Positions 32,691 to 57,066 of a stretch of 64,000 nucleotides of DNA are shown here, piece by piece (positions within the stretch are counted from its first letter, which is position 1; the number at the start of each line of letters is the position of its first letter). Source of the DNA: Pyropia yezoensis (taxonomy: Eukaryota; Rhodophyta; Bangiophyceae; Bangiales; Bangiaceae). The stretch lies in assembly GCA_009829735.1 (NCBI GenBank), contig CM020619.1, positions 25,259,554-25,323,553 of the forward strand, given 5' to 3'. Under the pieces are notes generated by a model. The model did no database searches. It was not told where the DNA came from and saw nothing but the letters and a program-made list of their open reading frames with translations. The position numbers and the translations under genes are program-made.

Positions 32691-34490
32691 ATGGCGGCCC
32701 TGACGACCATGACCGCTGCGGGGGCGGTGCGGGCAGCGGCCCGCGGGGGGGCGCCTCGTGCACGGCGCGTACCCGTTGCGTCGCGCAGCGTCGGAGGCCT
32801 GCAGGCGCGGCCGACCTCGCTGGCTCGCGCGTCTGGCAAGGTGGGTGTGGGCGCCCCGGCGGGTGCGCCTGTGACGTCGGCGCCGGCGACGACGGCAGCC
32901 GCGGCGGTATCGCCCGGCCCACGCTTTCATTCTGCCGCCACTCCTGCCGCACGCCGCCGGCCGCGGTCCACGCCGCTGTCCGAGACAGCGGCGGCGTTGC
33001 CGTCGTACGCCGACGGCGTTGTGACCAGCCATGGCGAGGCCACGGCCCCCCCCCGCCCCCCTGGAACGCCAACCCCTCCCATCAAGGACTACCCCCATCA
33101 TCCCCCCCCGCGCGTCATCCACCACCCGTCGGCGCAACATGCGTTCACAAAGTTTACCCCCCGCTGGGCGGCGACGCCCGCCCAAGGCCCTGCCCCCCTG
33201 CCCATCCCTGCCTATCGCCTGGTGGACGCCCGCGGCCACTTTGTTGCGGGCGCCACGGGGGCCGCAGGGGAGGGCGTCGGGGAGGACAACATCCTGGCTG
33301 GCCTTGGTGGCCGCCCCCGCATCGAGGGCCTCTTTCGCACGATGCTACGCCTGCGCGAGATGGACGCGGTGCTCACCAGCGCCCAGCGGCAGGGGCGGGT
33401 ATCATTCATGATGAGCACCGCTGGGGAGGAGGCGGCAGTCATTGGCGCAGCCGCCGCCCTGCGCCCGGACGATGAGGTGCTTGCGCAGTACCGGGAGCAC
33501 GGGGTGCTGCTGCACAGGGGGTGGGGGTTGGCAGAGTTTGTTAACCAGTGCGTTGGCAACGTTAAGGGCAGCTGCAAGGGCCGCCAGATGCCCATTCATT
33601 ATGGGTCGGTTGAGCATCACTTCCACACCATCTCGTCGACGCTTGCCACCCAAATGCCCCAGGCTGTGGGGGTGGCGTATGCGCTCAAACTTCGCCACCG
33701 GTTGGCAGCGGCCAAAGCTGCTCTTCGGGAGGACAACGGTGGCGATGGCGGCGTTGGCAGCTGCGGTAGCCCACGTGGCAACGGTGGCAAGTCGGCCCCG
33801 CCAGCAGCGGTGACGACGGCCGTTCCCACAATTGCCGCTTGCTTCTTTGGTGACGGTGCCTCCTCCGAGGGCGACGCCCACGCGGCCTTTAACTTTGCAC
33901 CCGTCCTCGGGACACCCACCCTCTTCCTCTGCCGCAACAATGGCTACGCCATCAGCACCCCTGCGTCGGAACAATACGCGAGCGACGGGATTGCTGGCCG
34001 GGGCCCCGGCTATGGCATGCCCGCCGCCCGCATCGACGGGTCGGACCTCCTGGCGGTGCTGTCTGGGATAGCCGCCGCCCGCGCAGCTGTCGCGACTACC
34101 TGCCGCCCGTTCCTCGTGGAGCTTCTTGCGTACCGCCAGAACGCGCACAGCACGTCGGACGACGCATCGCGTTACCGCCGCGACGGCGAGCGGGACGCCT
34201 ACATTGAGCGTGCCGACCCAGTGGCCCGCCTGCGGGCGCTGCTGCATCGACGGGGGTGGTGGATGGGCGCGTCCGAGGAGGGCGTCTGGCGCGCCGCCGT
34301 GCGCGCCGAGGTGGTGGCTGCGCTCGCGGCAGCAGAGGCACTACCCCGGCCAGGGTGGGAGGACCTGTTTGAAGACGTGTACGACGCCGTGCCGCAGGGG
34401 CTCGTACGCCAGCGGGACGAGCTCGGTGCCCATATTGCGAGAGCGGTGGCACGGGCGGGGGGGGGGTCGTCGGCCGGGGGTGGCCCTTGA
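32691..34490 (+). CDS. BCKDHA: 2-oxoisovalerate (branched-chain 2-oxoacid) dehydrogenase E1 alpha subunit
   Basis: The alpha subunit of the thiamine-diphosphate-dependent E1 of the mitochondrial branched-chain 2-oxoacid dehydrogenase complex, which decarboxylates the keto acids of Leu, Ile and Val; it pairs with E1 beta. The 599-residue frame starts at ATG 32691. Residues 1-140 are an Ala/Arg/Pro-rich, acid-poor leader. The core starts at FTKFTPRW (152) and shows LREMDAVLTSAQRQGRVSFM, the E1 alpha entry region. The cofactor motif is GDG at 387-389 ending in NN at 416-417. The phosphorylation loop HSTSDDASRYR (486-496) retains the serines that the regulatory kinase uses in homologues. A Gly-rich insert at about 345-376 and the long leader explain the size against about 445 for animal proteins. 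No intron. Its last third is duplicated at 13120-13843. Confidence 0.95.
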   Translation: MAALTTMTAAGAVRAAARGGAPRARRVPVASRSVGGLQARPTSLARASGKVGVGAPAGAPVTSAPATTAAAAVSPGPRFHSAATPAARRRPRSTPLSETAAALPSYADGVVTSHGEATAPPRPPGTPTPPIKDYPHHPPPRVIHHPSAQHAFTKFTPRWAATPAQGPAPLPIPAYRLVDARGHFVAGATGAAGEGVGEDNILAGLGGRPRIEGLFRTMLRLREMDAVLTSAQRQGRVSFMMSTAGEEAAVIGAAAALRPDDEVLAQYREHGVLLHRGWGLAEFVNQCVGNVKGSCKGRQMPIHYGSVEHHFHTISSTLATQMPQAVGVAYALKLRHRLAAAKAALREDNGGDGGVGSCGSPRGNGGKSAPPAAVTTAVPTIAACFFGDGASSEGDAHAAFNFAPVLGTPTLFLCRNNGYAISTPASEQYASDGIAGRGPGYGMPAARIDGSDLLAVLSGIAAARAAVATTCRPFLVELLAYRQNAHSTSDDASRYRRDGERDAYIERADPVARLRALLHRRGWWMGASEEGVWRAAVRAEVVAALAAAEALPRPGWEDLFEDVYDAVPQGLVRQRDELGAHIARAVARAGGGSSAGGGP

Positions 34491-38037: not shown

Positions 38038-38506
38038 TGTGGCAGTATTGACCCCCAGGTAGGGGGGCAACACGAGCCATGCAAGGGGCGGCAGGCCACT
38101 AGCCTGATCCGTTCCTCCCCCTGCATTTGGGTCCATATTCCCTAAGTTTGGGATAGTTAGCCTAGTAGTAAATCCAACTTGGATTTGAGGGTTTTCTGCA
38201 TTTATCGTCTTGAATTTTCGTGTGGCCCGGTGGGCAGGTGCTGGGGTGGGAGATTCTGAGTGGCGAGATTCTGAGTGGACCCTGGGGGGATAAGGGGAGG
38301 GACAGCGGGGCTTGGCCCTGCGTCCCCGTCCCGACCAAGAAACTGTTGGACCACACACCATCCTCTTGTTTGTCCGTGAGGGGTTTGCCCCACAACAGGG
38401 ACAGAGTGTGTGCGACTTGCACTTCTTCCGGTTCCCCCGACACGGGAGGCACCCCTTGCACACCGCCCCAACTTGGGTGCCGTGTGTGCATGTGGTTTTT
38501 GCCACA
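38038..38506 (+). repeat. E1 5' LTR (469 bp)
   Basis: Starts TGTGGCAG and ends TTGCCACA. It contains a tandem pair of CGAGATTCTGAGTGG. The copy at 56598-57066 is almost identical. Confidence 0.95.
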
Positions 38507-38526: not shown

Positions 38527-38625
38527 CAGAGGTAAACTTTACCTCCGGGTGCACCCGGGTGTAGGGGGCCCTCTGTCTCAGAGGAACGGTGGTCTTGGAC
38601 CGTGTCATACGGATCGTCAGCCAGC

Positions 38626-40572
38626 ATGGCTAGCTCGGACCCCCCGTCGTCCGGGGAGTACACGGGTGACGCACGTACTTCAGTGCCTTTGAATACTGGT
38701 GAGACACAGGTGGGTTTACCTGGGGTCGCAGAGGGACTAGAGGTCCCTCAAGCCAGCAGGACTGGAAGTACGGGCGGGCAACAGGCCACCCCGACTCAGT
38801 CGGGAGTTCACTCGGGTGACACTTCTGATGTGGGTGGGCCGAAGTCTGGCCACCGTGTGGTATACTCAACGGGAACGTCCCAAGGGGTGAGGACTGTCCC
38901 CGCGGGTTCCACTCGGGTTGGAGCCAACTTTGGCTTGGAGCCGTCGCCAACTAGGCTTTCGGAGGACGGCGGACCTCCGTTGGTCGGCGATGGGCTCGCG
39001 CCCATGCCCCCGGTTGAGACCCCAGAGGAACGTGGTTACCCCTCAGGTGGACTCCCGGAGGCGGACCGAGACTCAACTGGAGTCGTCAATCCACTCCTCG
39101 CGGAAACTGTCCGTCGGGAGGCGACCAATGTGTTGCGGCAGACTTTGCCGGACCTGGTGGTCACGATGACGAATACTATTCTGAATCAGATTGTGGCGAG
39201 TTTGCCAGATGGCCTTAATGTCCAGACCGGATTGGGGCTCTCGAGCCCGCAGGCACAGGGGGAATCCCTCCTCACGCCTATCTCGGGTCGCCCCGAACTG
39301 GGGGCGACACCTGTGACTCCCAACGAGGGAGCCACACCATACTCGGTGGGGCGTACGCCCTTCATGTGGGAGTTCCCCCCGGAAACGCCGGCGGCTACAC
39401 CAAGCGCGCCGCGCCGGACTACAGGCGCTGAGGGTCAACTTACCCCAGTGCCACAGCGGCTGTTCCCTCAACGTGAGGTGCCGCCCAAGATCCAGGTAGC
39501 CAACCCGGTCTACCAGCGGATCTTTGACTGTGAGACCTACGCCCTCCACAACAAGTCGGTGGCGTATGGTCCTGACCAGGCCCGAGCCATGGGCCGTGCC
39601 AAGAAGAATGCACTTCATTCTTTTGGGCACAAAGCGGAGTGGGATGGAACTCCCCCCCTCCGTGTCTTTGAGTTCCTACGTCGTTTCACAAAAGCCTGTG
39701 ACGACAATGCCATAAGTGAAGGCATGGCTTTTTACATGCTACAGGAGTTTACGAAGGGCGACCTGCGGACAGAACTTATGTCCGTCATGCCCAGCTCCTC
39801 AAGTGGAGGCGCTGGGGAGGTGACGTCCTATTTAGAGCTCGTCAACTGGTTGTTGAGAGCCATGGTTGATGAGGCAGCGTTGGCTTCTCAAGTCGAGGAG
39901 CTTACGCAAGCCCATCAGGAAGAGGCGGAGGAGGAGATGTCCTTTGCGGAGCGAGTCCGTAAGCTCAACAATCTTTGTGGGTTTCTTCATCCACAAGCTG
40001 TGGTGAAGAGTCGGTTTGTGGAGGGACTCCATTGGTCAGTCCGGATGGAGACCCGGGAGCATAACACTGCCCGGGCGACCCTGGCCGAGTTGGCTAGGTT
40101 CGCCTACCGCAGAGGCGAGGCCTACCGCAAGTTGCGGGAGGAACAACGCCAGGAGCGTCAGGCCGAGTTGGCCAAGGAACGGGAGGAGGCGCGCCAGGCC
40201 AGAGAGTTGAGAGAGGCACGCCGAATCCGCAAGGAGAGGGTGGTAGCTGCCGTGGGAACTTCCCAGGGTATCCCTTCGTCTTCCCCAGTTGGGAAGACCC
40301 CTCCCGGAACAGACCATCGGTGTTGGAACTGCAACTCCGATGGACACTGGGCATATGATTGCCCCAAGTTGAGTAAACGCATCCAACAACTTGTTAGGAA
40401 TGCGAGTAAAAAGTCGGCTACGAACGAAGTACGTTCACGCCGCGAGGGAGGGTCTCGACCGGTCGTCGCGGTCGCCACACCCTCGGCGGAGGAGGCGGAC
40501 ACGTCGTCCTCGGACTCGTCGTCTTCCTCCCCGCCCTCAGATTCGGACGCCAAGTCGGCGGGAAACGAATGA
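38626..40572 (+). CDS. gag: E1 Gag
   Basis: Structural protein of the retrotransposon particle. The first ATG of the frame is at 38626 (MASSDPPSSGEY), giving 648 residues. The first 270 or so are Gly/Pro/Thr-rich. The centre has the capsid-like region (LRVFEFLRRFTKACDDN..), followed by a charged Arg/Glu coiled stretch (about 500-540). Near the C terminus is a CCHC zinc knuckle, CWNCNSDGHWAYDC, and then an acidic Ser/Asp tail. It ends GNE and TGA, overlapping the slippery heptamer at 40560-40566. The frame is intact. Confidence 0.9.
   Translation: MASSDPPSSGEYTGDARTSVPLNTGETQVGLPGVAEGLEVPQASRTGSTGGQQATPTQSGVHSGDTSDVGGPKSGHRVVYSTGTSQGVRTVPAGSTRVGANFGLEPSPTRLSEDGGPPLVGDGLAPMPPVETPEERGYPSGGLPEADRDSTGVVNPLLAETVRREATNVLRQTLPDLVVTMTNTILNQIVASLPDGLNVQTGLGLSSPQAQGESLLTPISGRPELGATPVTPNEGATPYSVGRTPFMWEFPPETPAATPSAPRRTTGAEGQLTPVPQRLFPQREVPPKIQVANPVYQRIFDCETYALHNKSVAYGPDQARAMGRAKKNALHSFGHKAEWDGTPPLRVFEFLRRFTKACDDNAISEGMAFYMLQEFTKGDLRTELMSVMPSSSSGGAGEVTSYLELVNWLLRAMVDEAALASQVEELTQAHQEEAEEEMSFAERVRKLNNLCGFLHPQAVVKSRFVEGLHWSVRMETREHNTARATLAELARFAYRRGEAYRKLREEQRQERQAELAKEREEARQARELREARRIRKERVVAAVGTSQGIPSSSPVGKTPPGTDHRCWNCNSDGHWAYDCPKLSKRIQQLVRNASKKSATNEVRSRREGGSRPVVAVATPSAEEADTSSSDSSSSSPPSDSDAKSAGNE
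40560..40566 (+). promoter_or_regulatory. E1 gag-pol -1 ribosomal frameshift site (GGGAAAC)
   Basis: The gag codons read G GGA AAC GAA TGA, so the heptamer fits the XXXYYYZ rule in the gag frame and lies one codon before the stop. Slipping -1 enters the pol frame directly. The same heptamer sits at the same place in E2 and E3. Confidence 0.8.
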
Positions 40573-41876
40573 CCGTTGGGGCTGGTCGTCCGAAGCTCAC
40601 AACGGCAGCCTCGGCCAAGTGGGCCAGGAGGACGAACCAACCGTGCCGGATACTGCGGCGACCTAAGGGAGTCCGCCCACCTCGGGTAGGACTCCCCAAG
40701 AACGTAAACCCACGTCGGGTCATCGCGGTGCTGACGGGTGAGAACTTCCAGGTGGCTGGACGGGTGCAACCTGCCCCCGGCCGCGCCTGTTGTGCCCGTA
40801 TCGTACTTGATACCGGGTCGGGAGCCTCCTTGATACGCAAGTCGCTGTTACCAAAGGAGGTGAAGCTCCAACGCTGGGGGTCCAAAGCTGACCATATGAT
40901 CGATATCAATGGTGGGGTACTTCCCATCGTTGGTGCCGTGACCCTACCAACTAGGTTGGGGACCCATGAGGTCGACGTGACCTATGGTGTAGTTGAGAAT
41001 ATATCGGTACCCCTGCTTCTGGGTACCCCTTATGTTGTTACACAAGTGCCTTTGATTTGTGGCCCTGAGTACTGGGTCAAGTTGATGAATGGGGAGACTA
41101 TCCCCATCCTTGGTAAGGGAAAGTCTGTGGCTCCTGTGACAGTCTCACAGTCGAAGCCTGTTTGCTCTGTGAGGGAAGGGATTACTGCTACCCTGCGTCT
41201 AGCCCGTAAAGTCATGTTGCCCCCCAACTCGGTGGCGCACGTTGATGTTGTAACTGATTATACGGGGAACGGGTTGGTGCACCCTCACCCCCGTCTTGCT
41301 CGCAAGCACCAAGTGCATGTTGCCCTTGGCACGATGGTTTCCAAAGCCGGAGTCCCGTGTAGGATACAGGTGATGAACCTGAGCTCGTCGCCCCAGTACT
41401 TCAAGTCGGGAGCCAAGTTCGGCTATATCGACCAACACGAGGGACCGGTAGTAGCGGTCACCCTCAACGCGGGCGCAAGTAGCGACCCGAAGTCCGGAAA
41501 GGAGAAGCATCAAGCCAAGTCGGCCGCCTCTCCTCGACCCCATGTGAACATGGAGGGTGTCCCCCCCAGGTTGAGGGTTCAAGTTGAACGCCTCTTGGAC
41601 CAATATCACAAGTTGTGGGATGGTCAATTGGGACTCATGAGAGCCACCCAACACCGGATCGAGTTGAAGCCCGGTGCACCCCCTATACGCCAACAACCGT
41701 ATAGGGGAGGACCTCGTTCAAGGGCCCTCGTTAAGGAGCAAGTTGCTCGCATGGAGGCCCTCGATGTGATCGAGGCCAGCAACGCCGAGTGGGCGAGTCC
41801 GGTGGTTATCGTCCCCAAAGTTGATGGGACCCCCCGGTTTTGTATCGACTACCGTAAGTCAACGAGAGCACAGTGA
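40569..41876 (+). pseudogene. pol: E1 Pol, first part: protease and start of reverse transcriptase (frameshifted)
   Basis: The frame is -1 relative to gag. The protease active site is DTGSG at about residues 81-85. Then comes a linker and the start of reverse transcriptase (LDVIEASNAEWASPVVIVPK, FCIDYRK). The frame ends prematurely at 41874-41876: right after FCIDYRK a single missing base (near 41858) throws translation out of frame, and the next conserved motif continues in the frame of 41861-44551. This copy therefore cannot make full Pol without correction. Confidence 0.88.
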
Positions 41877-44551
41877 AGGACAGTTATCCCCTACCTAGGA
41901 TGGATGACTGTCTGGACTCTCTGGGGGAGGCAAACTTGTTCTCTACCCTGGACTGTAACGCGGGGTACTGGCAAATTCCCATTGCCCCGGAGGACAGGCG
42001 TAAAACTACCTTTACCTGTCACTGTGGTACCTATCAGTGCAAGCGTCTACCGTTTGGTCTGTGTAACGCGCCGGCAACTTTCCAGCGCGCTATGGACATG
42101 ATTCTGGCCGGAGTACGGTGGCAGATCTGTCTTGTGTACCTGGACGATATTATTGTGTTCTCCCGAAGTCCGGAGGAACACATTGGCCATCTTGGCCAGG
42201 TGTTCAAGCTACTTGCTGACGCCGGTGTGTCACTGAAGGCGAGTAAGTGCCACCTCTTCACTCAAGAGGTGGAGTACTTGGGACATGTTGTCCGTCCGGG
42301 GCGTCTCAGTGTTAACGAGAAGAACTCGAGGGCCATTCGTAAGGCTCAGTACCCCCGGACCCAGACCCAGATGAGGAGCTTTCTCGGGATGTGTAACGTG
42401 TACCGACGTTTCACCAAGGGCTTCGCCAAGGTGGCGAAGCCGTTGAATGAGCTAGTGAGCTCAACGCTACCGAAGAACCTGCCTCCCCCAAGTCGGGTGG
42501 AGCAGGAATCCTTTGAGACTCTTCGGGACCTTCTGCTGAAGCCCCCCATCTTGGCTATTCCCAGGTTGGGAGGCCACTACATCCTGGATGTGGACGCTAG
42601 CTACGACCAACTTGGTTGTGTGTTGCTTCAGCAGCAGCCGGACAAGGAGTACTTGCCGGTGGGATACTTCAGCAAGGGGCTGAACTCGGCCGAGAAGAAC
42701 TACGGAGTCACCGAGTTGGAAGGACTCGCAGTGGTGTGGGCGGTGACGTCACTTCGTCACTACCTAGAGGGTGAGAAGTTCCTCATCCGCTGTGACCACC
42801 GCGCGTTGCAGTTCATCTTTAAGACGGACTGTACGAACACTCGTCTCAATCGGTGGAGGGTGCGACTGGCACCCTTCAACTTTGACATTGAGTACCGACC
42901 TGGCAGGCAACATGCCCTTGCCGACGGCCTCTCTCGGGTACCTACCGAGGGGCTGGACACTAACCCAGTCGATGAGGACATCCCCATCGGGGGGGTAGTC
43001 ACGCGCTCGGGTCAGGCGTTGAACCCCGAGGCGCCAGGGAACAAGAAGTACTTGCCCCTGTCCCTGGACGAGGTGGTGAAGGCCCAGGCCGAGGATCCCT
43101 TCTGCAAGTCGCAGAGGGATACACTGGATACAGTGGCGGAGACGCGGTTCTTCTTGGGAGACGATGGCCTCCTCATGAGGAGGGGGGTATTCCAGGGGAC
43201 CGAACAACTTGTCGTCCCCGCATCCCTCAAGGGCAGTATCCTTGAGAGGGAGCACAACGCTCCCACGGGTAGACACCTGGGGTCTAGTAAACTGTACCAG
43301 ACCCTGAGGACCAGGTACTACTGGCCGTCCATGGTGGTGGACATCTACAGTTGGGTGGCTGCCTGCACAAGTTGTGCACAGAACCGTCTGATGGAACGGC
43401 GGCCTACTACGGCTATGCTATTGTTCCCGGCCAAGGAGCCCTTCGCCGCGTTGGCGATGGACATCCTTGAGCCACTGCCAGTGACCGAGGAGGGCAACCA
43501 GTACCTCCTGGTCATCTGTGACCGCTTCACGAAACTTACGCGAGCGATCCCACTGGCAGAGATCACGGCCATGTCGGTCGTGTCAGCCTTCCTAGATCAC
43601 TGGGTTGCCGCGTATGGCATCCCAGATAGTACACTATCGGACAATGGACCGCAATTTGCGTCGGTACTGTTTCGGGGAGTGCTGGATATGTTGGGGGTTA
43701 AGGCAAACTATGCCACCCCCTACCACCCACAAACTAATGGGCAGGTGGAGCGCTTCAACAAAACTATTGTTAGGCAGCTGCGCCACTACGTGAGTGAGCA
43801 TGTGAAGACGTGGGACCAATACATTTCTATCCTTACTACTGCCTACAATTCGCAGGTTCACTCATCTACCGGGGAAGTACCCCTCGCTTTTGTGACCCCC
43901 CGTCGTGTGCGGTCTATTGCCGTGCGGCGGTCGCTCCCAACTAGGGAGGATAGTGGCAGTACGCCTACTCCTACTGAGAGTAAGGCGGAGTTCGCTGCTA
44001 GGCTGGAACACCTCATCCCTAAAGTCAGGGCTGAGATGGACAAAGCACAAAAGCGCTACAAGCGTACCTTTGACAAAAAGGTGCGCAATGCTAAGCATGT
44101 CCCCGAACAGGGTGACTGGGTGCTGGTTCACTCACACACCCCAACTGGGGGTAAGTTGGTATTCCAGACGAAGGGGCCATACCAGGTCCTTCGTACTGAT
44201 GGGCGGCGCTTCACCATCGAAAGTGACGATGGGGTCCGCACAGTGAACGGACAGGACGTGGTCAAAGTTGCACCACCGCCTGCAGGCGACCCAGCCTGGG
44301 CGCGTGCTTTGGAAGCGTGGCGCCTCCCCTCACTGCCTGCGGCCAAACAGGGCCCGCAGGAGTACGTGTTCGATAAGTTCATCGACCACGGATGGGATGA
44401 GGACACTAACCGCCTCATGTTGAGGGTGCGTTGGTTTGGCTACAAAGCCAAGGATGATACGTGGGAGTATGTGGAGGATCTTCCCGCTGAGAAGGTCCGG
44501 GCGTACTGTGCCCGGAATGAGATAGACCCTAACAGCCCTCCCTCAACGTGA
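41861..44551 (+). pseudogene. pol: E1 Pol, second part: RT, RNase H, integrase, chromodomain
   Basis: Continues Pol after the frameshift. Reverse transcriptase: LDCNAGYWQIPI, LPFGLCNAPATFQ, and the catalytic YLDD in LVYLDDIIVF. RNase H: LDVDASYDQLGCVLLQQQ. Integrase: zinc-binding H-H-C-C region ending CTSCAQNR, then a D-D-E core with AMDILEPLP, SDNGPQF and TNGQVERFNK. The C terminus is a chromodomain (LRVRWFGYKAKDDTWEYVEDLP), which marks the element as a chromovirus and would guide integration to modified chromatin. There is no ATG start of its own. It ends 112 bp before the stop of the convergent antisense ORF. Confidence 0.9.
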
Positions 44552-44663: not shown

Positions 44664-46418
44664 CTAGGCACGCATTCTAGACTCTCCCACTCCACGGCCC
44701 TCGCCCTCACGTGGAGGCGAGCGGCGAGACCCACGCCGATAACGGTCTCCACTCGTTGGAAGGGGCGGCGGCTCCAAGTCGGAACCGTCGCGCCCTTCAC
44801 GGTCGCGCAAGTGGCGCCGACCGTGGCTACTCTTCTGCCTGGTCTTGCGCGCAAGTTTGCGACGCAGACGCTGGACAGACTCCGTCTCCGACGGGGTAGA
44901 GGACTCCGAGACGGAGTAAGACAACTCGTCTTCCAACACGGAGGGAGAGCGCCGCGAGTGTCGGCGACGACGGCGAGGAGGCGAGTATGCCCGGCTCGCG
45001 CGACGTTTGCCACGCCCAAGTGGGGCTGGCTGGGGCATAATAGCCCCAATGCGAGCCAACTCGGCTGTCATAAACTCCGCCACCGACTCGCAACTCGCGG
45101 TCGCCACTTCAGTACGAACGCGCTCCTCAAGTTGAGGAGTTTCGGAACTTTGTAGGGTTGCGGTCGACGCGGCCAACCAGGAAATGGTGCGCACCAACGT
45201 GGTGATCATCATCTCTGAGGTTAGAGGCGTGGGCGGTAACACCAACTTGGGGTATACCGTCAGGAGGGTGGCCCCCAAGTTGGGGGACACCGGGGTGGAT
45301 GACTCCACGGCCACGCTGATCGGGATGTTCCCGTGAGGCTGGAAAGGAACAGGAGGAAGCGGAGGGGCACGCCGAGGTGGCGGTACCCGGGTGTAACTGC
45401 GACCCCGACTTGGGGCCCCCGCAGTAGGTTGAGTCATATGGTCATCATATGAGGGCACAGCCATAACTATGGGCTCGTCCGGGGGTGGCGCAGTGTGGCG
45501 ATCCACCCCCGGGGCATACGGGTAGTCTCCGATGCCCAACCCCTCTCGTAGGACCACACGGCCATCGTGAAGTTCACGAGCGACCCACACGAACTGGCGA
45601 AGTGCGCCATCGTCCTGGGGCCCACGAGTGGGGCGGCGCAACTTGTGCTCAATGCTCTCCCACTCGATAAACTTATGGAGCCGGAGCATCTCCTCAAGTA
45701 GAATGAGTTGTCCTGATGAGCACCCCTCAGCAACTAGCTGAGGGGTGAGCTGTTCCAAACCTTGGATGAGCCGGAGGGGGAGATGCCAGAGCATCCCCCG
45801 CCGCTGAACACAGGACACCCAGGTCGACATGACCTCGAGGAGCCACTGGGTGGCCAACATGGCCCACACCAGGTGATCAGGGCCAGCCGTCAACATGACG
45901 GAGCCGAAGTGGTCAAGCAACCGTGGCAGCAACGCCGGGAACCCGTAGGGGACCTCAACTTGAGGCCACCACTCGGGCTTCTTCGGATAGTACTGCTCCT
46001 TACTGGCAGCAGACTGTTGAGGAAACTCAAGTTGAGCCGAGGTCACCAAGTAGGGACCTCGCCGGAAGTCCTTCTCCATCCGCACATCAAAGTGATGAGT
46101 GTGCGGATCGGCCTCGTGGAGGTACGGGGGGCGAGTTGCCACCGCGTCCCAAGTAAAGGTCGGCAAGTCGCCGGGACCCGGGATAGTTCCCCCGCGGTCC
46201 ACCATGGCCTTGGCACGCTGAACGTCCTCAACCTCCTCATCGTCCAGGAAGGCAAACTGGTCCGTCCTGAAGCCGGCAGGGAACCCGACCCTACGGGGAT
46301 ACTTCTCCCGTAGGCGGTCCCATACCCGACCCATCGCTGCGCCAAGTCGGCCACAGCGTAGAACAGTCAACCCCTCCTCATAGAGAGGCCAAGCGGGGTA
46401 AAACCACCGCCCCAAGGT
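44664..46418 (-). pseudogene. E1 antisense ORF (aORF), C-terminal 584 residues, interrupted by E2
   Basis: A long frame opposite in direction to gag-pol, between pol and the 3' LTR. At 46418 it runs into E2; its N-terminal 63 codons lie beyond E2 at 56071-56259, exactly in frame once E2 and one target copy are removed (about 647 residues in all). The function is unknown. Visible features: LGAAMGRVWDRLREKY, then LVTSAQLEF, YYPK, EVPYGF and LATQWLLEVM, and a long Arg/Ser-rich C-terminal tail (SPPRRRRRHSRRSPS). The middle block matches the E2 aORF with identical spacing. No transmembrane segment or signal peptide is obvious, so it is not a typical envelope protein. An RS-rich tail could suggest RNA binding or nuclear location; this is inference. 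Confidence 0.75.
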
Positions 46419-46989
46419 TGTGGTATAAAACTCGATCCTCCCAGACACGTGTCAATATCCCTCGGGGGAAAGGGACAGGTAACACAGAAAGGGGAACTAC
46501 GAGAATGGTATGCCTGTTGCCTCACGTGCCTGCTCGCAGAGCAAACAGATACGCACGGTAGTGCACACGGGGAAGAGGAAAGCAAACGCGCAGTTGTCTT
46601 TTTCCTGAGGGCGCGGGCCAAGGGCGCCTCGCTGTCCCTCTTAACGTGCATCTGGGGGAGCCTCGGCACGTTGGCGAGATAGCCCCCCCATAACCCCGAG
46701 TGGCCCCGACCCGAGTCTAACCTCGTCAGGTCGGGGGCCACTATCACTACTAATTCTATTCCCACTCACTAATCTCACTCTCGAATTCTCTCAAATCAAG
46801 TCCCTCACAAGTATGCAAAAACCCATCAGCAATCCCTCTCTCACGTGTGGATAGCGTAGTCCACCGCATCCCAGTGCCGGGCACGGGCCACGGCCGCCAA
46901 CCATCACCACACGGCGGGCGTGTTCTGGCACCTGGTGCCCTCTGGTTGTAGTCCCGGGTCGGCACCAAGTCGGGGCCAGGGATGCTACA
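46419..46989 (-). repeat. E2 3' LTR (571 bp)
   Basis: In element orientation the LTR runs TGTAGCATCC...TATACCACA. The adjacent interior end AGGGAGGGAGCTA (complement of about 46990-47002) is a likely polypurine tract. Confidence 0.93.
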
Positions 46990-47173
46990 TAGCTCCCTCC
47001 CTAGTCCGGCACGTCCTCGGGCCGAACCAGGTGCCACCGTGCACAGCCTCGAGCACGTCCACACCGGTGCCGAGTTCGAGCGTCTTCACCCTGGTCACGA
47101 TCACCTGCTCCGGTTCTCTGCCCCCCTTCTCTCCTTCACCTTGGCCCTCTCGTTCCCCCGGAGTCTGGACGTC

Positions 47174-49289
47174 ATGTCCAGTTCCGAGATCCAAGCTGGG
47201 CCCGTGGTTCCGGCGGCGAGTGTTGCGGAGGAGAACTCGGGTAGTCGCGCCCCTCTCCTGCCTCCGGTTCCTCGGGTGTCGATGTCGGCGCCGGTCGCCA
47301 CGGCGGGGACGGATCGGGTTCCCCCGGCTTCTGTGATGCACCCGGTCGAGACCCCCCCGGTGGGTCTCCCGGAGATGCTTCTTGGGCAAGACCCTCTGGC
47401 GGCCCGGCGTTACTCCACGGTGGTCGGCAACGCCGGCGCGGCCCAGTGCCAGCAGGATTTCTTGGACCTCTGGCGCAAGGAACTCCAGCGCGGGGTCCTG
47501 ACCGAGATGGATAAGGCTCGTCTTCACACGGCGGACCAGATGCGCCTGGCACAAGACCGCTCCCAGAGCTTCTCGGGTTCCTCTTGGGTTGCTCGTCTGG
47601 AGGATCTCCCCGTCGCGCTGGTGCTGGATCTACCCTTGACCGAGCGTCGCGTGTCCGCGTCCGTTCTCCGGTGGCCGGAGGAGGAAGGGTACGTCCACCG
47701 GGCGCTCAAGGTCTGGGACGAGGCGCTCAAGGGGTCGTGGAGCCTGAACTGCGACCCCCGTCCGAGCATGGTCGCTCTGGAGCCGCCTTTTCTGACCCGG
47801 AAGTACTCCAAGTTTTCACCGGCACGGGAGCAAGGCGAGCGACGCGGCCGTCAGCGTGACTTCCTCGTGAGCTGCAACCATCAGGAGTTCTGGAAGCTGG
47901 ATAAGGCTAACCGGGCGGCGTACTACCCCAAGGTCATCCCGCAGCAGCAGGAAGTCGAGATCCCGGTCGGGTTTGCTCCTTCCAGCATCCCCTTCACCTG
48001 GTACTTCTTGGACGCCTTGACTCAGGCGTCGATCAAGGGCTTCTTCCACTCGATCCCGTACATGATGTGCACGTCCGAGATGACAGTCTTGGCGGCCAAC
48101 CACTGGCTTCACGAGGTCTTGGTGTTCAACCGGCTTTGGTCTCCCTGACCTCCTGATGGTCTGGATTGTCGACAAGTTGACCGTCGACTTCTTGTGCAGC
48201 CAGGACGAAGAGTACAAGGGGCTCTTCCAGGCGATGATTGACTTCCGGCGTCTGGTGCCGGTGCATGACCGGAACTTCTTGAACGCGATTGCCGACCAGA
48301 ACCGCCCGCGTCGGGATGGCTTCGGTTGGGCGCAGGTGGTCTACCAGTCTTCTCCGGCCAAGGTGCAGCTGGCGACGCCGCTTCCGGCGTGGCCGCAGCT
48401 AGGTAGCTTTCCTGCCCCGGCCGCCCTTGATCTTCTGCCAGTTGGGCCGCCTGTGCAGGAGTCGGGATGGGCCGCGGCGGTCGGTCAGGCGTCTGCGGCG
48501 GCTCCGCTTCCTCCTGTTGCACCTGTCGCCCCGGTGGCCTCGCCTGAACCGTCGCCGGCGCGTTCACGCCCTGTTCCGGCTGTGCCGGTACTTCAAGCTC
48601 CTCCGGCACCGCGCCTGTCTGCGGCGAGTCTGGAGGTGACTGTGCGGTCGCCTACCACTCCGGCCGCTCCGCCTCGGACGCCTTCTTCCAACGCCGGCGG
48701 CGCTGTGCCTCCGCTGGAGTTGGGTACTCCGGTTTCGGGGGCCGTTGTGGACCGTCCGGTGGTGTCATCCTCGGGGCGGTTCGAGATTCCGGCGCCGACT
48801 CTGCGCCTTACCCGCTTCCGGGTGCCTGACTGGTACCTGAACCAAGGTGGCCCGACATGCGACCAGTACGACGTCGGTATTATTGAAGACCAGCTGGGTC
48901 GTCTTCCGGTGCAGGTTGAGGGCGTCGGGTCTTCCCTGGTGCTGGGCACTTACGCCAGCGTCTTGAACAACGTGGTTGACCGGGTGTTTGCTTGCGCGGA
49001 CAGCGGCCAGATGTCGAACAGCCCGGTGGTTGGCGAACTTCTGGCGACCTTGACGCGGCATGGCTTGGCCCAGCAGTTGTCAGAAACCTTCACTGGCTTC
49101 CAGGGGCGCCGACGGGCATATCTGGATGAGCGGGAGCCCCCGGCAACTACCGGTACTACTCCGATGGCGTCATACCGGGATGCACCGCGTCCACCGCACT
49201 ACGTCATCCCGTCTTCCTCCGGTTCCCGTCGTGCCGCGGAGGCAGCGCTGGAGGACACTCCCGCGGCTCAGCGTCCGCGCCGGGAGTAG
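47174..49289 (+). pseudogene. E2 antisense ORF (aORF), one frameshift
   Basis: Runs opposite to E2 gag-pol and converges on the end of pol (stop at 49289; pol stop at 49585). The first in-frame ATG beyond the LTR is 47174 (MSSSEIQAG). The first part, 324 residues, stops at 48148. A net 1-nt shift there joins it to a second frame running through 48156-49289. Motifs shared with the E1 aORF: LVSCNHQEF (from residue 231), YYPK (250), EIPVGF (262) and LAANHWLHEVL (306). The first three keep the same spacing in both proteins (19 and 12 residues). The second half is Pro/Ala-rich and ends in an Arg-rich tail (AAQRPRRE). The function is unknown. Confidence 0.72.
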
Positions 49290-49584
49290 TAGTTGGAGGC
49301 AAGGAGGGTGAGGGTCTTGGGAGAAGCGAGGAGGGAAGAGGCGGAGAGAAGGGTTGCCCGAGCGGGTGCTTGTTTTCCTTGATTGTTCCATGCTTGTATT
49401 GCGTGTTCTCCTTGATATACCCGTTCCCTTCTTCTCAATCCTCTTGTTCCGCATCCGTTGCGGATGAACTCGGCTCGTCCCGAGGGTCTTGGTTGGCCCC
49501 ATCCTCTTGGTCCTCCTCCGAGTCCGACTCCAGAATCTTGCCGGCTCTGGCCACTGGAGTGCCCTCTATCCCGTTCCGTCGCGT

Positions 49585-50370
49585 CTAGGCACAGACATCC
49601 GCGATGGGTAGCCGGTTTGAGGGTTCCCAGGTATCATCTGCCGGGTTAAAACCGAACCAGCGTACTCGCAGGTACAGGCGTCCGTCTCTCCAGGCATGGT
49701 CCACAAACTTGACGTAGACATATTCCCGACCTTCTTCTTGGGATAGCCAGGGTACTGCGGCCCGCTTGCGCCGGGTCAAGTCCCGTTGGCTTGGCGGTGG
49801 AGCTCGGGTGACATGGTCGCTGCTCACGCGGTACGGGGAGCCATCCGCCTCTAGAAGAAAGGTCCAACCGTCCGTATTCAGGATCTCATAAGGTCCATCC
49901 GTCTTCGAGTCCAGCTTCCCCCGGGTCTTGCTATGGTTGTCCACAAAAACCCAGTCGCCACCACCCAGTTCCTTGTTCTTTTCCCGAACGCCCTTGTCAT
50001 AGCCCCACTTGTATCGCTCCTGGGTCTTCGAGATTGACTCCTTGACTCTTGGGAGCAGGAGCTTCAGTTGTTCCAAGAACTCATCCTTTGCCTTGGGACC
50101 TGACTTCAGTGCAGGCTGGAGACCATCTGGTATTCTTTCCAGGGAGAAGTTGGTCAGCCGCCTTGGGGTGACAAAGTCGAGTGGGGCGACTCCCGTTGTC
50201 CGGTGACCTCGGGAGTTGTAGGCTAGAGTGAGGACAGCCAGGAGCTCGTCCCAGTCTTCTTGGTGCTCCTCCACGTAGTGCCGTAGCATGTCCACTAGGG
50301 TCCGGTTGAATCGTTCCACCTGGCCGTTCGTTTGCGGGTGGTACGTCGTGGTGTACAAGTTCTTGATGTC
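49585..50370 (-). pseudogene. pol: E2 Pol, second part: end of integrase and chromodomain
   Basis: Continues Pol after a 1-nt frameshift near 50372. It begins in the integrase core (YHPQTNGQVERFNRT, with the catalytic Glu) and ends with a chromodomain, YLRVRWFGFNPADDTWEPSN. The separate frame has no start signal of its own. Confidence 0.87.
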
Positions 50371-53300
50371 ATCAGGTCACAGACTCCTTGGAAGAACAGG
50401 GATGCAAACTGGGGACCGTTGTCGGTTAAGACGGAGTCTGGAGGGCCGTAGGCAGCTATCCAGTACTCGCAGAAGGCTGACGTGACATCCAGAGCCGTGA
50501 TGGTCCTCAGCGGGATTGCTCGAGTGAACTTGGAGAACCGGTCACAAATGATGAGCAGGTGTATGTTGCCACTGGATGTTTCAGGTAGGGGCCCCAGGAT
50601 GTCCATGCTTAAGCTTGCAAAGGGCTCCGCCGCAGGGAATAGGCGTAGCTTAGAAGTCTTCTTCCTCTGGGACAACCGGTTCCTTGCACACGAAACACAA
50701 GCCTCCAGGTACTTATGGACGTCACTGGCCATGGTTTCCCAGTAATAGTGTCGTCTCATGGAAGCATACATCCGATTGATACCAGGATGTCCGGCCTGGG
50801 GAGACGAGTGCTCCAGGCGTAGGATGTCAGCTCGTAGGCCCCGGGGTACGTAGACTTGAGTGGCCCCATCGAAGGGTGACACCCGTACTAGGAGTCCGTC
50901 CGTAGACTCGGAGAAACGACTGTTCCGGTTCAGGTCCATTTGGTGGCGAAGCTCCAAGCATTGAGGGTCCGTCAGTTGTGCCTCCAGCATCCGGTGAATG
51001 GACACCGGTTGATGAGCTTCAGGTGTCTCATGCAGGGGAGCGTGCCAGCCACGTCCGACATACGGGAGGATGAAGCAAGGTGTTTCCTCCGGGATAGGAC
51101 CGGTATCGGCTGCAGGAGTCTCCAGCCGGGACATGGTGTCGGCGCAGTGGTGCTCCCTCCCTGCTCTGGTGCACACCTTGTACTTGAACTCCGAAAGGCG
51201 TAGGCGCCACCGGGCGACCCTTCCTTGACTGCTGTCCATACATAGCAGCCACCTTAGGCTGGCGTGGTCCGTCCGGATGAGGAACTCTTGTCCTTCAAGA
51301 TATGGCCGTAACAGGAAGCAAGCCCAGACGACTGCCAAGCACTCGCGCTCGGTCGTGGAATAGTTCTTCTCAGCTGGAGTCAAGACGCGACTGTAGTAGC
51401 CTATCGGGAGAAAGTGCCCATCAGGTTGCTGCTGGAGTAGTGAACACCCCACCTGGACGCCACAGGCATCCGTCTCCAGAACAAACTGGCCCTCCCGCTT
51501 GGGTAACGCCAGTACTGGAGTGGTGGTCAGGCGCTTCTTGAGCTCTTCGAAGGCCGCGGTCTGCTTCTCGTCGAACACCGGGAGTTGTGCGGGAAGCTTC
51601 TTGCTGGTCAGCTTGGTCAGTGGCCGGGCAATCAGAGCATAGTCCCGTACGAACCGGCGATAGACGTTGCACATACCCAGGAAGCTCTTGAGTTCCGTCT
51701 GGGTTTTGGGTTGCCGTGCATGCCGGAGGGCCTTGATGATCTTCTCATTGACTCGGAGCTCCCCCGGACTCAGCACGTGCCCCAGATACTCCACCTCAGT
51801 CTCAAACAGGTGGCACTTCTCGGCCTTGAGGGTAACTCCAGCCTTGGACAGGAGGGCCAGGACCTCCCGAAGGTGCTCCAGGTGTTCCGCTGGGGTCTTG
51901 GAGAAAACGATAATGTCGTCCAGGTCGACCAAACATGTTCTCCACCTTAGCCCGGACAGGATGATGTCGATGGCTCTTTGGATGGTTGCCGGAGCATTGG
52001 TGAGACCAAAAGGAAGACGCTTGCACCGGAATAGTCCCAGGTGGCACGTGAAGGTGGTCTTGTCCTTGTCCGCGTCAGCCAGAGGGATCTGCCAGTAACC
52101 GGCATTACAATCCAGCGTCGAGAAGAGGGTGGCATCACCAAGAAAGTCGAGGCAATCATCCATCCGGGGTATCGGGTATTCGTCCTTGACTGTCATCTCG
52201 TTCAGGCGCCGGTAGTCAACGCAGAAACGGAAGTGACCGCCGGTTTTCGGGACGACTGCCACCGGGAAAGCCCACTCGCCATCAGACGGCTCGATAACAT
52301 CCATCTTGAGCATCTTGTTAACCTGCTTCTCAATCTCATCCCGGCGATGAGGTCCGGCCCGATATGGTTGCATGTGTACTGGCTTAGCTTCCGGCTTGAG
52401 TTGAATCCGGTGTAGAGTGGCGTCCATCTTGCCCAGCTCTCCCGACCACAGGTGCCGATATTCCTGGAGAAGCTTCTCCAGTGCCTCCTTCAAGTCGGGA
52501 GGGACATTTTCTTGCTTGACCTTCGGCATCCCGGGTGGTGCTTGTTCGGGTTTCGGAGTAGCGCTGTCAGCCTGCTCTTGCTTCGGAGGTACGTCTAAGG
52601 CCGTCAAGTTGGATGCCAGTTCTTGTTGCAGGTTCAGGAGGTCTTCCTTGCTCATAGCACGGGCGGATCCCCGGTAAGGCTCTGCTGTACCAACTCGGGT
52701 GCCCTTGGCGAGGGTTATTGGCTTCCGGCTCACGTTGACGATTAGCACCGAGAACGGGGTGTGCCTTTCTACCTTCTTGTGATGTCCGTGGGCCAAGTAT
52801 AACCGGTGTTTCGCCAGAAATCCCTTACGTCCGTAGATCAGGCATTGACCTGCAATCCGGGTCGTTACTTGAACCTTGGTCTCCGAGCGAGGAGGTAGGA
52901 GCACCGGTTTGAAGAGAGTCAAGGTAGAGGGTGGGATGCGTTCCCTCTTGCTCTTGGCTACACGAACCTTGGCGTCCAGATGCTCCAATACCGGTGACAC
53001 AAACCCATGGTTGAACTGGACCTTCCCTTCTCCGGGTAGGATGCTCTTGACATGCTGCTTCTGGAAGTCCCAGCCTAGGATGAGGGGGACTGATAGGGTC
53101 TTGACTACTAGAAGGGGAAAAAGCATTGGTTCATTGTTGACATAGATGGCGACAGGAAGACGGCCAAGCGGTCGTAGGGTTTGACCCGAAGCGTCGACGA
53201 TATGGGTCCGGGTAGGCGCTCTCCAGGCATGTCGACGCCAGCCCGGAGGTAACAGGTTCTCAGTGATGACGCTTGGTCCGGCTCCCGTGTCAACCACCGG

Positions 53301-53528
53301 TGTAACAGCTTGGGGGAGGCTATCCCCCACACGCATACAAGCATTAATCTTGAGGTTTTCTTTACGCAGGACGAGCAATGTCCCCTTGAACAAACAGGTT
53401 GTCCAGGCGGCTACCGGTTGAGCGGGTAACTGCCGTCCTTTCTCCCGGCACGCAAGGGGAGAACAGGTAGAAGTACCCTGCCGTCGGAGATTCGGGAAGA
53501 CACTTGGGGAGAGCGCCTGCCCTACTCG
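50371..53528 (-). pseudogene. pol: E2 Pol, first part: protease, RT, RNase H, integrase (frameshifted, RT site changed)
   Basis: The frame is open from the slippery site at 53528-53534, in -1 relation to gag. The protease motif is VVDTGAGPS. The RT region is complete, but the catalytic tyrosine position is Asp: LVDLDDIIVF instead of the E1 version LVYLDDIIVF. RNase H (LETDACGVQVGCSLLQQQ) and most of integrase (CVSCARNR; SMDILGPLP; LTDNGPQF) follow. Near 50372 one base appears to be missing and the frame runs to a stop at 50295 with nonsense sequence. A further DNA stretch at 49585-50370 carries the rest. Confidence 0.9.
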
Positions 53529-55282
53529 TTTCCCGGGTCCGAGGAGTCCTTAGAGGTTTCGGTCTCCAGGTCAAAGTCCGTAGGAGCTTCCCTTGCCAGA
53601 GCCTCCGTGATGCTCTGTAAGGTTGCCACTCGGATTGCGTGTACCTGTGCCTGGTCCATCTTGGAGGGTGCTCGCCGGTCAGCCCAGTTGACCGCCTTTG
53701 CAAACACCAGTCCTTGACGCTTGAGTTTCTCCTGGAGGTCCTTGGGAATGGTCGGGCACTGGTAGGACATGTGATCCTCCTTCTGGCACAGCCAACAAGA
53801 CCGGAACCGCTGGTTCTTGACTTGCTCGGGGGCGACCAGGGATGGTTGCTCCTTAGAAATGAAGCCGCCCCACTTGTCCCCTGACCCCACGGTTGAGGCC
53901 TCGCCAACTGCGAGTACCGGTACAGGGCTATCACCTCCCTTATATTTGTCGGGTCCGGGACGAACTCGCGACAACGGCTTGGGAGTTGATACCATGGGAG
54001 CTTGGAGGGCCTTGGCTTGCCGGTACTTGCCCTGGGTGTAGGCCATCAACTGCTGGAAGGTATGTTCTTGATGTTCCTGGTTGTAGTTCTCCGCATCCAC
54101 TTGAAGATATTCAGGAAGCCCTTCCGAGAAGATCATCTTGAGCCTGTCCTCAGGGTAAACGTTGCCACAAGCATCGCTCATCTCCCGGACACGACGGGCG
54201 AACGCCTCTGGAGTCTCTTGTCTTTCCATGGTTGCCCGGTTCAGCCTGCCGACTGCTTTACGCAGAGAGTCCGCGTCAGCGTAGTTGGACAGGAGCCAGT
54301 TGACCGCCTCCGGATAACTCGCGACGATACGTCCGACAATGTGTCCGGCAGAGTCTGGTAGAACCTGTGCAAACCGCTGTTCCGCTTCTCCGGTCATGAA
54401 GTCAACCAGGAGGTAGAGAGCCTTGCCCTCGGACACATCGTTGTCATTGCATGCCTTGACAAACCGGCGCAGGAAGGCAAAGATAAGCGCCGGTCTCTTC
54501 CCGGAAAACTTAGGATGTCCCCCGAAGCTCGGCTGCATTCGCCGGTTCAGGGACGCCATCTTCTTGGCCATCTTCCGGGTGTAACCTTGGTCTTGATTCT
54601 CCAGCCGGTAGTCACCCCAATACGTGACCTTGTTCAGGGTGGCATCTCCCACTTGGTGGGCAGGGAAGTCAAACTCGACTAGCCTGCGCCGGGTGGGACC
54701 GGGAGATGCATCCCAATCATATCCCTCCTCAGAGCTGGAGGAACTGGTCTCGCTGGTGCTAGAGCGACGGCGATGACGCCGACGCCTTTGGCTGCTCCGG
54801 TTACCGGTCTTGGGGCTCCCCGCCCCATAGGATGCAAGGGGAGGAAAAGCTTGGCCGGTCCCAGGAGTCGAGGTCTCAGGGAGACCCGTAGAACCAGTCA
54901 CAACGGTGCCTCTGGCATCGCTAGTGCCCACAGGAAGACGTGTATACACCCAGCTGCCATGTGTGGGTCCAGGAGTAAACACACCAGGGGCTATCCCTGG
55001 AGGTTGAGGAGTAGAACCGACAGGAGGGAGACGTCTGCTGCGAGCGGACTCAAACGCCGTTGACCCCGGGGTGGCTCCCACAGGAGGAACAGCCGGAGGA
55101 ACGGGAGCAGGTGGTGCTTGGCCGCCTGTGGACTCCAGTCCGCTACCGGATGTCACACCCAGGTCTGCTTCACCCGTAGGGAGAACGCCGGGTTGGACAC
55201 CGTCCCCCGCGGTGACCAGGGATGCATCAAGGGACGCGGGGTCTACCCCTTCGGGCACCGTCGTGCCAGGGAGGGTAGCCAT
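53522..55282 (-). CDS. gag: E2 Gag
   Basis: Starts at ATG 55282 (MATLPGTTVPEG) and gives 586 residues, intact. The N-terminal third is Pro/Thr/Gly-rich and includes an Arg/Ser patch. The capsid-like region contains ALIFAFLRRFVKACNDNDVSEGKALY, closely parallel to E1 Gag. A zinc knuckle, CWLCQKEDHMSYQC, sits near the end, followed by an acidic Asp/Ser tail ending GNE and TAG. It differs strongly from E1 Gag in sequence but has the same architecture. Confidence 0.9.
   Translation of the reverse strand: MATLPGTTVPEGVDPASLDASLVTAGDGVQPGVLPTGEADLGVTSGSGLESTGGQAPPAPVPPAVPPVGATPGSTAFESARSRRLPPVGSTPQPPGIAPGVFTPGPTHGSWVYTRLPVGTSDARGTVVTGSTGLPETSTPGTGQAFPPLASYGAGSPKTGNRSSQRRRRHRRRSSTSETSSSSSEEGYDWDASPGPTRRRLVEFDFPAHQVGDATLNKVTYWGDYRLENQDQGYTRKMAKKMASLNRRMQPSFGGHPKFSGKRPALIFAFLRRFVKACNDNDVSEGKALYLLVDFMTGEAEQRFAQVLPDSAGHIVGRIVASYPEAVNWLLSNYADADSLRKAVGRLNRATMERQETPEAFARRVREMSDACGNVYPEDRLKMIFSEGLPEYLQVDAENYNQEHQEHTFQQLMAYTQGKYRQAKALQAPMVSTPKPLSRVRPGPDKYKGGDSPVPVLAVGEASTVGSGDKWGGFISKEQPSLVAPEQVKNQRFRSCWLCQKEDHMSYQCPTIPKDLQEKLKRQGLVFAKAVNWADRRAPSKMDQAQVHAIRVATLQSITEALAREAPTDFDLETETSKDSSDPGNE
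53528..53534 (-). promoter_or_regulatory. E2 gag-pol -1 ribosomal frameshift site (GGGAAAC)
   Basis: Gag reads G GGA AAC GAG TAG on the minus strand. The -1 frame continues without a stop into the protease. There is no ATG near the start of the pol frame, so frameshifting is the simplest route to Pol here. Confidence 0.85.
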
Positions 55283-55472
55283 GTTGGTCTCTTGACAGCC
55301 ACAGTCCAGTTGCCTGCGTGTCCAAAGATCGCCAGACAACAAGAGAGGGGTTGGAGAGCCAGGGATGGGATTCCCGTGAACGGGTGCAAATAATTCCCAA
55401 ACCACCAAAAAAGACAGAACAGGAACACCCCAACCGCTGCTCCCAAATGTCTCTTCTCAAACACTCCAATCA

Positions 55473-55490
55473 TCCCCTGCTGCTCCACCA
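55473..55490 (-). promoter_or_regulatory. E2 primer-binding site
   Basis: On the minus strand TGGTGGAGCAGCAGGGGA, 4 nt after the end of the 5' LTR, identical to E1 and E3. Confidence 0.85.
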
Positions 55491-55494
55491 AATA

Positions 55495-56065
55495 TGTGGT
55501 ATAAAACTCGATCCTCTCAGACACGTGTCAATATCCCTCGGGGGAAAGGGACAGGTAACACAGAAAGGGGAACTACGAGAATGGTATGCCTGTTGCCTCA
55601 CGTGCCTGCTCGCAGAGCAAACAGATACGCACGGTAGTGCACACGGGGAAGAGGAAAGCAAACGCGCAGTTGTCTTTTTCCTGAGGGCGCGGGCCAAGGG
55701 CGCCTCGCTGTCCCTCTTAACGTGCATCTGGGGGAGCCTCGGCACGTTGGCGAGATAGCCCCCCCATAACCCCGAGTGGCCCCGACCCGAGTCTAACCTC
55801 GTCAGGTCGGGGGCCACTATCACTACTAATTCTATTCCCACTCACTAATCTCACACTCGAATTCTCTCAAATCAAGTCCCTCACAAGTATGCAAAAACCC
55901 ATCAGCAATCCCTCTCTCACGTGTGGATAGCGTAGTCCACCGCATCCCAGTGCCGGGCACGGGCCACGGCCGCCAACCATCACCACACGGCGGGCGTGTT
56001 CTGGCACCTGGTGCCCTCTGGTTGTAGTCCCGGGTCGGCACCAAGTCGGGGCCAGGGATGCTACA
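55495..56065 (-). repeat. E2 5' LTR (571 bp)
   Basis: Nearly identical to 46419-46989. Confidence 0.93.
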
Positions 56066-56259
56066 AAGGCCTCACGCGGGACACCTTGTCCCGCCTCCGG
56101 GGGAGACCCCGCCGTCAACCCAAAGCCGGGTGACGCGGGAGTCCCATCCCCCGGAGCGATCGCGGAGCCCCCGCCGGAAGTCCCGGCGGGTGCTGCACCG
56201 CAGGTGGTGTCCTCCATACGCTCATCTAGAGAGTCCGTCTCCACTCCGGGGGTCGCCAT
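56066..56259 (-). pseudogene. E1 antisense ORF, N-terminal 63 codons
   Basis: Starts at ATG 56259 (MATPGVETDS), 338 bp inside the E1 3' LTR. Gly/Pro/Ala-rich. The last codon before the target duplication ends at 56071, and the frame resumes at 46418 on the other side of E2. Confidence 0.72.
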
Positions 56260-56597: not shown

Positions 56598-57066
56598 TGT
56601 GGCAGTATTGACCCCCAGGTAGGGGGGCAACACGTGCCATGCAAGGGGCGGCAGGCCACTAGCCTGATCCGTTCCTCCCCCTGCATTTGGGTCCATATTC
56701 CCTAAGTTTGGGATAGTTAGCCTAGTAGTAAATCCAACTTGGATTTGAGGGTTTTCTGCATTTATCGTCTTGAATTTTCGTGTGGCCCGGTGGGCAGGTG
56801 CTGGGGTGGGAGATTCTGAGTGGCGAGATTCTGAGTGGACCCTGGGGGGATAAGGGGAGGGACAGCGGGGCTTGGCCCTGCGTCCCCGTCCCGACCAAGA
56901 AACTGTTGGACCACACACCATCCTCTTGTTTGTCCGTGGGGGGTTTGCCCCACAACAGGGACAGAGTGTGTGCGACTTGCACTTCTTCCGGTTCCCCCGA
57001 CACGGGAGGCAGCCCTTGCACACCGCCCCAACTTGGGTGCCGTGTGTGCATGTGGTTTTTGCCACA
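56598..57066 (+). repeat. E1 3' LTR (469 bp)
   Basis: TGTGGCAG...TTGCCACA, about three differences from the 5' LTR. Followed by the target duplication CCAAC. Confidence 0.95.

Follow-up and report, generated by a model that had tools for sequence, protein, structure and literature searches.

Antisense accessory open reading frames (aORFs) located between pol and the 3′ long terminal repeat (LTR) have been reported in the plant retrotransposons Grande (where the gene is called gene23), RIRE2, Retand and PvRetro13, and in the fungal element Boty (PMC7264820). Such genes have been described mainly from flowering plants (PMC7264820, PMC11963269), in which they are retained in most copies and conserved to a degree similar to that of other element proteins; no established function is given for them there. 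TRP28 is encoded by 97% of Retand clusters (PMC11963269), and the gene23 product of Grande is a nuclear protein with its own antisense transcript and a promoter upstream of gene23 (PMC7264820, PMC11963269). Minus-strand accessory genes near the 3′ end, with an antisense promoter in the 3′ LTR, are also present in human T-lymphotropic virus (HTLV) as HBZ and APH-2 (PMC11963269, PMC7264820). Here we describe an antisense gene in this position in two Ty3-type LTR retrotransposons, E1 and E2, of the red alga Pyropia yezoensis, found in a stretch of 64,000 nucleotides (hereafter, the window; assembly GCA_009829735.1, contig CM020619.1, positions 25,259,554 to 25,323,553).

E1 lies on the plus strand of the window and E2 on the minus strand, nested inside the antisense ORF of E1. 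In both elements a long ORF on the strand opposite gag-pol fills the interval from pol to the 3′ LTR, the same layout as in Grande, RIRE2, Retand and PvRetro13; the preliminary description of this locus had named Grande and RIRE2 as precedents, and PMC7264820 reports both. These four are plant elements, whereas E1 and E2 reside in a red alga; TRP28 was not found in E1 or E2. Retand, as characterized in the same sources, is a non-chromovirus Gypsy element with TRP28, whereas E1 and E2 have a chromodomain-like pol end and no TRP28 match and thus fall outside that definition. Boty of Botrytis and Sclerotinia is a fungal, and so non-plant, element that resembles E1 and E2 in the placement of its antisense ORF, past pol and before the 3′ LTR, and the comparison with HBZ and APH-2 is a functional analogy for which no sequence relation is claimed. 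Antisense aORFs in this position are already a known class. No report of a red-algal antisense accessory ORF was found in the open-access literature searched (including PMC2864245, PMC12477816, PMC8752119 and PMC7423979).

We conclude that the antisense ORF is a genuine protein-coding gene, under selection and fixed in place. In the window, the E1 antisense ORF occupies 44664–46418 on the minus strand (listed as an ORF at 44664–46448 and cut by E2 at 46419) and resumes past E2 with a start piece at 56066–56259, whose ATG at 56257–56259 is also the start of predicted protein P0002. The E2 antisense ORF runs on the plus strand in two pieces, 46982–48148 and 48156–49289 (the latter from the ORF list), split by a frameshift with the break near 48146. 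The preliminary description, which placed an antisense ORF in both complete elements, was thus right about position and orientation, but neither window copy is intact, and the open copies lie elsewhere in the genome. In simulations of sequences with the same dinucleotide make-up (300 runs each), the longest open frames were 472 and 425 codons, compared with 724 codons (locus L002, E1) and 779 codons (L010, E2) observed.

Evidence for selection in E1 comes from diverged subfamilies, which also carry E1-type antisense ORFs. One of these (L076, for which the ORF alone was examined) is open over 691 codons and encodes a protein 74% identical to that of E1. Compared with L002, its ratio of nonsynonymous to synonymous substitution rates (dN/dS) was 0.282 over 642 codons counted from the ATG, and 0.295 over 692 codons when the stretch upstream of the ATG, which contains one stop, was included. 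Differences between the two at codon positions 1, 2 and 3 numbered 106, 83 and 226. The other five frames had 20–33 stop-bearing codon positions and ratios of 0.45–2.3, the 0.45 belonging to the frame that shares third positions with the antisense ORF. Constraint on the E1-type protein was highest in two blocks, approximately residues 200–320 (the core shared with E2) and 400–560. Seven further E1-type loci, decayed and with 2–4 stops each (the overlapping L069 and L070 being a single copy), gave dN/dS values of 0.25–0.39, comparable to the 0.21–0.30 obtained for pol in the three of these loci that showed it.

Variation among E2 copies shows selection while elements are active and near-neutral decay once they are inserted. 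Of 30 fetched copies, 28 could be aligned gap-free once the window copy (L009) and L031 had been set aside, and seven of these 28 contained stops. Biallelic variants present in at least two copies comprised 32 synonymous and 23 nonsynonymous changes plus one stop, against a nonsynonymous-to-synonymous expectation of 216:101 built on the observed mutation spectrum (ratio 0.33, P = 6 × 10−5, the copies being mutually non-independent). Singletons comprised 96 synonymous and 169 nonsynonymous changes and six stops (ratio 0.82, P = 0.13), and the two classes differed (P = 0.004). The preliminary description had argued that retention in two families implies selection and had proposed a dN/dS comparison; the low ratios in E1 relatives and the selection on common E2 variants support that argument. 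They also bear on the view that the ORF is no gene, being a by-product of high GC content and young copies. In favor of such a view, the window alone contains 93 ORFs of at least 150 amino acids, and near-identical copies stay open through age alone; selection specific to the antisense frame and the ORF-length simulation run against it, and we consider it extremely improbable.

The P. yezoensis genome is reported to be 65% GC and 48% repeats, mainly LTR retrotransposons, in a study that also drew on PacBio transcriptome data (PMC7423979). In the 107.5 Mb assembly (11 contigs), which gave one match to a phycobilisome domain, copies were sought by scoring only the best candidates, so that copy numbers are lower bounds and not a census. 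The E1 antisense ORF was represented by a 724-codon open frame in 71 of 74 scored places and by frames of 723, 779 and 595 codons once each (the last being the window copy), with no stop within the matched part at any of the 74. For E2, in which 779 codons was the commonest frame length, a query covering the protein's first half scored 106 places, 18 of them with a stop, and a query with the C-terminal half of L038 scored 120, 13 of them with a stop. An LTR directly adjoined the start of the antisense ORF in 29 of 30 E2 loci (the exception being L023) and in all seven E1 loci, the window copy excluded, and the end of pol was found past its stop in 29 of 30 E2 loci (the exception being L038) and, again, all seven E1 loci. 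Approached from the other side, at least 40 of the 52 best-scoring of 148 E2 pol tails had the antisense ORF at a fixed offset, and among lower-scoring tails it was matched in at least 8 of 26 rows, checked against one ORF list only. Presence of the ORF in many copies, in a fixed place, agrees with the preliminary reading. The score was exactly the same (579.4 bits) for many E2 pol tails, which also had an open frame of 1371 codons; this suggests that a single subfamily has multiplied very recently.

Pol and the antisense ORF lie tail-to-tail, and the distance between their stops is 112 nt in E1, 295 nt in E2 and, from coordinates, approximately 110 nt in L072, L074 and L075. This geometry would suit a suppressor of host RNA silencing: if pol and the ORF were transcribed toward each other, double-stranded RNA would form at the junction, and the protein would shield the element. 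A member-by-member Pfam scan at E ≤ 10 returned a single weak match, to the L1 dsRBD-like family PF17490, in one of 18 members (E = 0.07), which we treated as chance; no silencing-suppressor family was matched in the Pfam scans, and we regard this explanation as unlikely.

The antisense proteins of E1 and E2 are related through a core of approximately 165 residues (23% identity over 166 columns, E = 2 × 10−8 by BLASTP in a single comparison). The core, whose outer limits were derived from the span of the BLASTP match, lies at 45726–46202 on the minus strand in E1, and its portion within the first piece of the E2 ORF lies at 47771–48145 on the plus strand, also with calculated limits. The motif block reported earlier, LV(T/S)xxxxEF followed by YYPK 19 residues later and E(V/I)PxGF a further 12 on, is present with exactly that spacing, as LVTxxxxEF (46023–46049), YYPK (45981–45992) and EVPYGF (45939–45956) in E1 and as LVSCNHQEF (47864–47890), YYPK (47921–47932) and EIPVGF (47957–47974) in E2. 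Local alignment of the two proteins from their likely starts scored 123, against a mean of 48 and a maximum of 83 among shuffles, and none of 1000 shuffles reached it. Profile–profile comparison gave a weaker result (probability 58%, E = 1 × 10−4), and another conserved block, toward the C-terminal end, did not give a significant E1–E2 alignment, 165 of 1000 shuffles being as good.

The two elements had been presented as distinct families. They are indeed diverged, with gag proteins 29% identical, but they are not independent: their reverse transcriptase (RT)/RNase H regions are 59% identical, and in the tree they grouped with full support as sister families, separate from the other Ty3 family sampled (9 tried of 30 fetched loci, which were the best of 150 rows; 7 were kept, one having been excluded because of a stop and another because of its length). 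The RT of that other family (L066) is approximately 37% identical to those of E1 and E2, and past its pol a region (L077:1–690) resembles, by eye, a chromodomain end. No antisense ORF longer than 150 amino acids occurs in the 911 nt that follow this chromodomain-like end; because this is one copy and a short stretch, absence of the ORF from the family is suggested rather than established. Given the homology of the core, the gene probably predates the E1–E2 split, and because E1 and E2 are sister families, a single ancestral gain before that split is probable, rather than two.

Searches on the protein itself agreed with the earlier remark that no similarity to the plant antisense proteins or to envelope, chromatin or RNAi-suppressor proteins was recognized. 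Scans of Pfam and PDB and large protein and genome searches yielded no convincing relative, and as judged from sequence the protein matches none of the families compared. TRP28 (Transposase_28, PF04195) was not matched by hmmscan at E ≤ 1 or E ≤ 10, and a genome search at E ≤ 10 gave no candidates; a possible likeness of the E(V/I)PxGF region to TRP28 fits poorly with the spacing of conserved residues given in PMC11963269 and has no search support. The E1 protein had no PDB match, and the PDB matches to E2 were low-complexity Rieske transit peptides (best E = 0.003), which we rejected. Searches of 5.8 billion protein sequences returned only the near-identical fragments P0001 and P0002 among the matches scored (approximately 8,000, and all 1,819 in another search), and in bacterial and archaeal genomes none of the 479 pattern matches obtained was a relative.

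Two of the alternatives concern the nature of this protein. It might serve the particle as a structural or chaperone component, in effect another Gag-like protein but encoded by an antisense mRNA, as its helix-prone core and its length would allow; its divergence between E1 and E2 also resembles that of gag (23% identity for the antisense core, 29% for gag). Alignments of the antisense proteins to either gag were no better than shuffles, however (81, 238, 299 and 295 of 300 shuffles were as good), and no gag family was matched in Pfam, which makes this reading decidedly unlikely. Because env occupies the corresponding position, downstream of pol and ahead of the 3′ LTR, the protein might also be envelope-like, or the gene might have been captured from a host. 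The usual hydropathy threshold for a transmembrane segment is 1.6. The best 19-residue values of the antisense proteins were 1.23 (E1) and 1.54 (E2), with no long strongly hydrophobic segment, and together with the antisense orientation these values speak against an envelope. We consider an envelope or captured gene very improbable.

We propose that the ORF is an accessory gene, probably older than the E1–E2 split, that belongs to a single red-algal Ty3 lineage whose pol ends in a chromodomain-like sequence, is expressed from its own antisense mRNA and encodes a trans-acting regulator, a reading to which we assign a probability of roughly 0.5. A separate antisense mRNA would be required because the antisense frame is absent from the sense genomic RNA, and it would start in or just inside the 3′ LTR. 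The predicted protein begins with a region rich in Pro and Ser, followed by a core prone to form helices; the E1 protein alone also has a strongly basic tail (the C-terminus is SR-rich, and the last 150 amino acids have a pI of 11.6). The protein may act in trans, in the nucleus or in association with ribonucleoprotein, to regulate how the element is expressed or integrates, a role of the kind that has been proposed for the plant aORF proteins. We favor this regulatory role by analogy with Grande gene23 and HTLV HBZ, and taken by itself it is a tentative assignment. In two of the seven E1 loci, L002 (16–1386) and L006 (1–1386), part of gag-pol has been lost and the antisense ORF is still open, and these are deletion derivatives, possibly mobilized in trans; we count this retention in support of the proposal, along with the E1 basic tail, a TATAAAA motif in the E2 LTR and the plant precedent.

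The TATAAAA motif occurs four times in the window (0.6 expected), two of these being in the E2 LTRs (46424–46430 and 55500–55506). The E2 LTR has a single TATAWA, which is on the antisense strand, upstream of the antisense ORF and 5 nt inside the end of the LTR, as a candidate antisense promoter would be. Because E1 has no such motif, we treat it as a lead only. The likelier start codons are the ATG at 56257–56259 in E1 and that at 47174 in E2, the latter downstream of the frame's first ATG (46982), which falls within the last 8 nt of the E2 3′ LTR (46419–46989, minus strand). The argument is a weak one: constraint seems lower upstream of these codons, on small numbers. For E1, dN/dS was 0.51–1.12 upstream and 0.28–0.51 downstream (in one L071 row the two sides did not differ, and another row comprised only 10 codons), and codons 1–64 of E2 contained three nonsynonymous common variants and one synonymous.

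Several observations weigh against the proposed accessory gene and its regulatory product. The E1 antisense leader has no TATA box, and the E2 C-terminus lacks a basic tail (pI 5.4). Neither full-length antisense protein had a Pfam match at E ≤ 1, and AlphaFold models of the two cores had mean pLDDT values of 33 and 31, without a confident fold. The L076 protein aligned to that of E2 with a marginal score of 72, reached by 5 of 1000 shuffles, and the E2 pair L010–L038 had a dN/dS of approximately 0.5, which is expected with decay yet is not strong constraint.

That a red alga has a selected antisense gene in which the plant domain was not found suggests either great age or repeated origin of this arrangement. 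A tentative scenario is that red algae gained the gene in a chromodomain-bearing Ty3 lineage, either independently or from a very early plant-lineage element; the slot would then be a recurrent home for HBZ-like regulators, and the core a new protein family. With its many copies and a genome of just 107 Mb, this system makes antisense transcription, small RNAs and protein location directly testable.

The remaining parts of the two elements are as follows. E1 (plus strand) comprises a 5′ LTR (38038–38506), a gag ORF with a zinc knuckle (38602–40572; PF00098), pol (40569–44551, in two frames in the window copy, 40569–41876 and 41873–44551) and a 3′ LTR (56598–57066), and is flanked on both sides by CCAAC, read by eye. 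E2 (46419–56065, minus strand, bounded by its LTRs) comprises a 5′ LTR (55495–56065), a gag ORF without a Pfam match (53522–55408; the identity to E1 gag extends over 321 columns) and pol (49585–53393, in two frames in the window copy, 50295–53393 and 49585–50358). The LTR pairs, delimited by BLASTN, have 3 mismatches in 469 nt (E1) and 3 in a 574-nt match (E2), and because each pair differs at only 3 sites both insertions look recent. In the Pfam scan both pol regions contained RT, RNase H, integrase and a chromodomain-like end, the latter (PF00385) scoring 21.6 bits in E1 (E = 2 × 10−4) and 22.4 bits in E2 (E = 1.2 × 10−4), both under the 25.1 cut-off. Scans for bacterial promoters, Rfam families and tRNAs gave nothing relevant to the antisense ORF. 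Elsewhere in the window, a direct repeat with 98% identity occurs at 13120–13419 and 33914–34213, 20.8 kb apart, its second copy inside a dehydrogenase E1 gene (32691–34490), and an inverted repeat (19473–19645/20223–20395) with 173-nt arms, 98% complementary and separated by 577 nt, lies at the edge of a TRM13-like gene.
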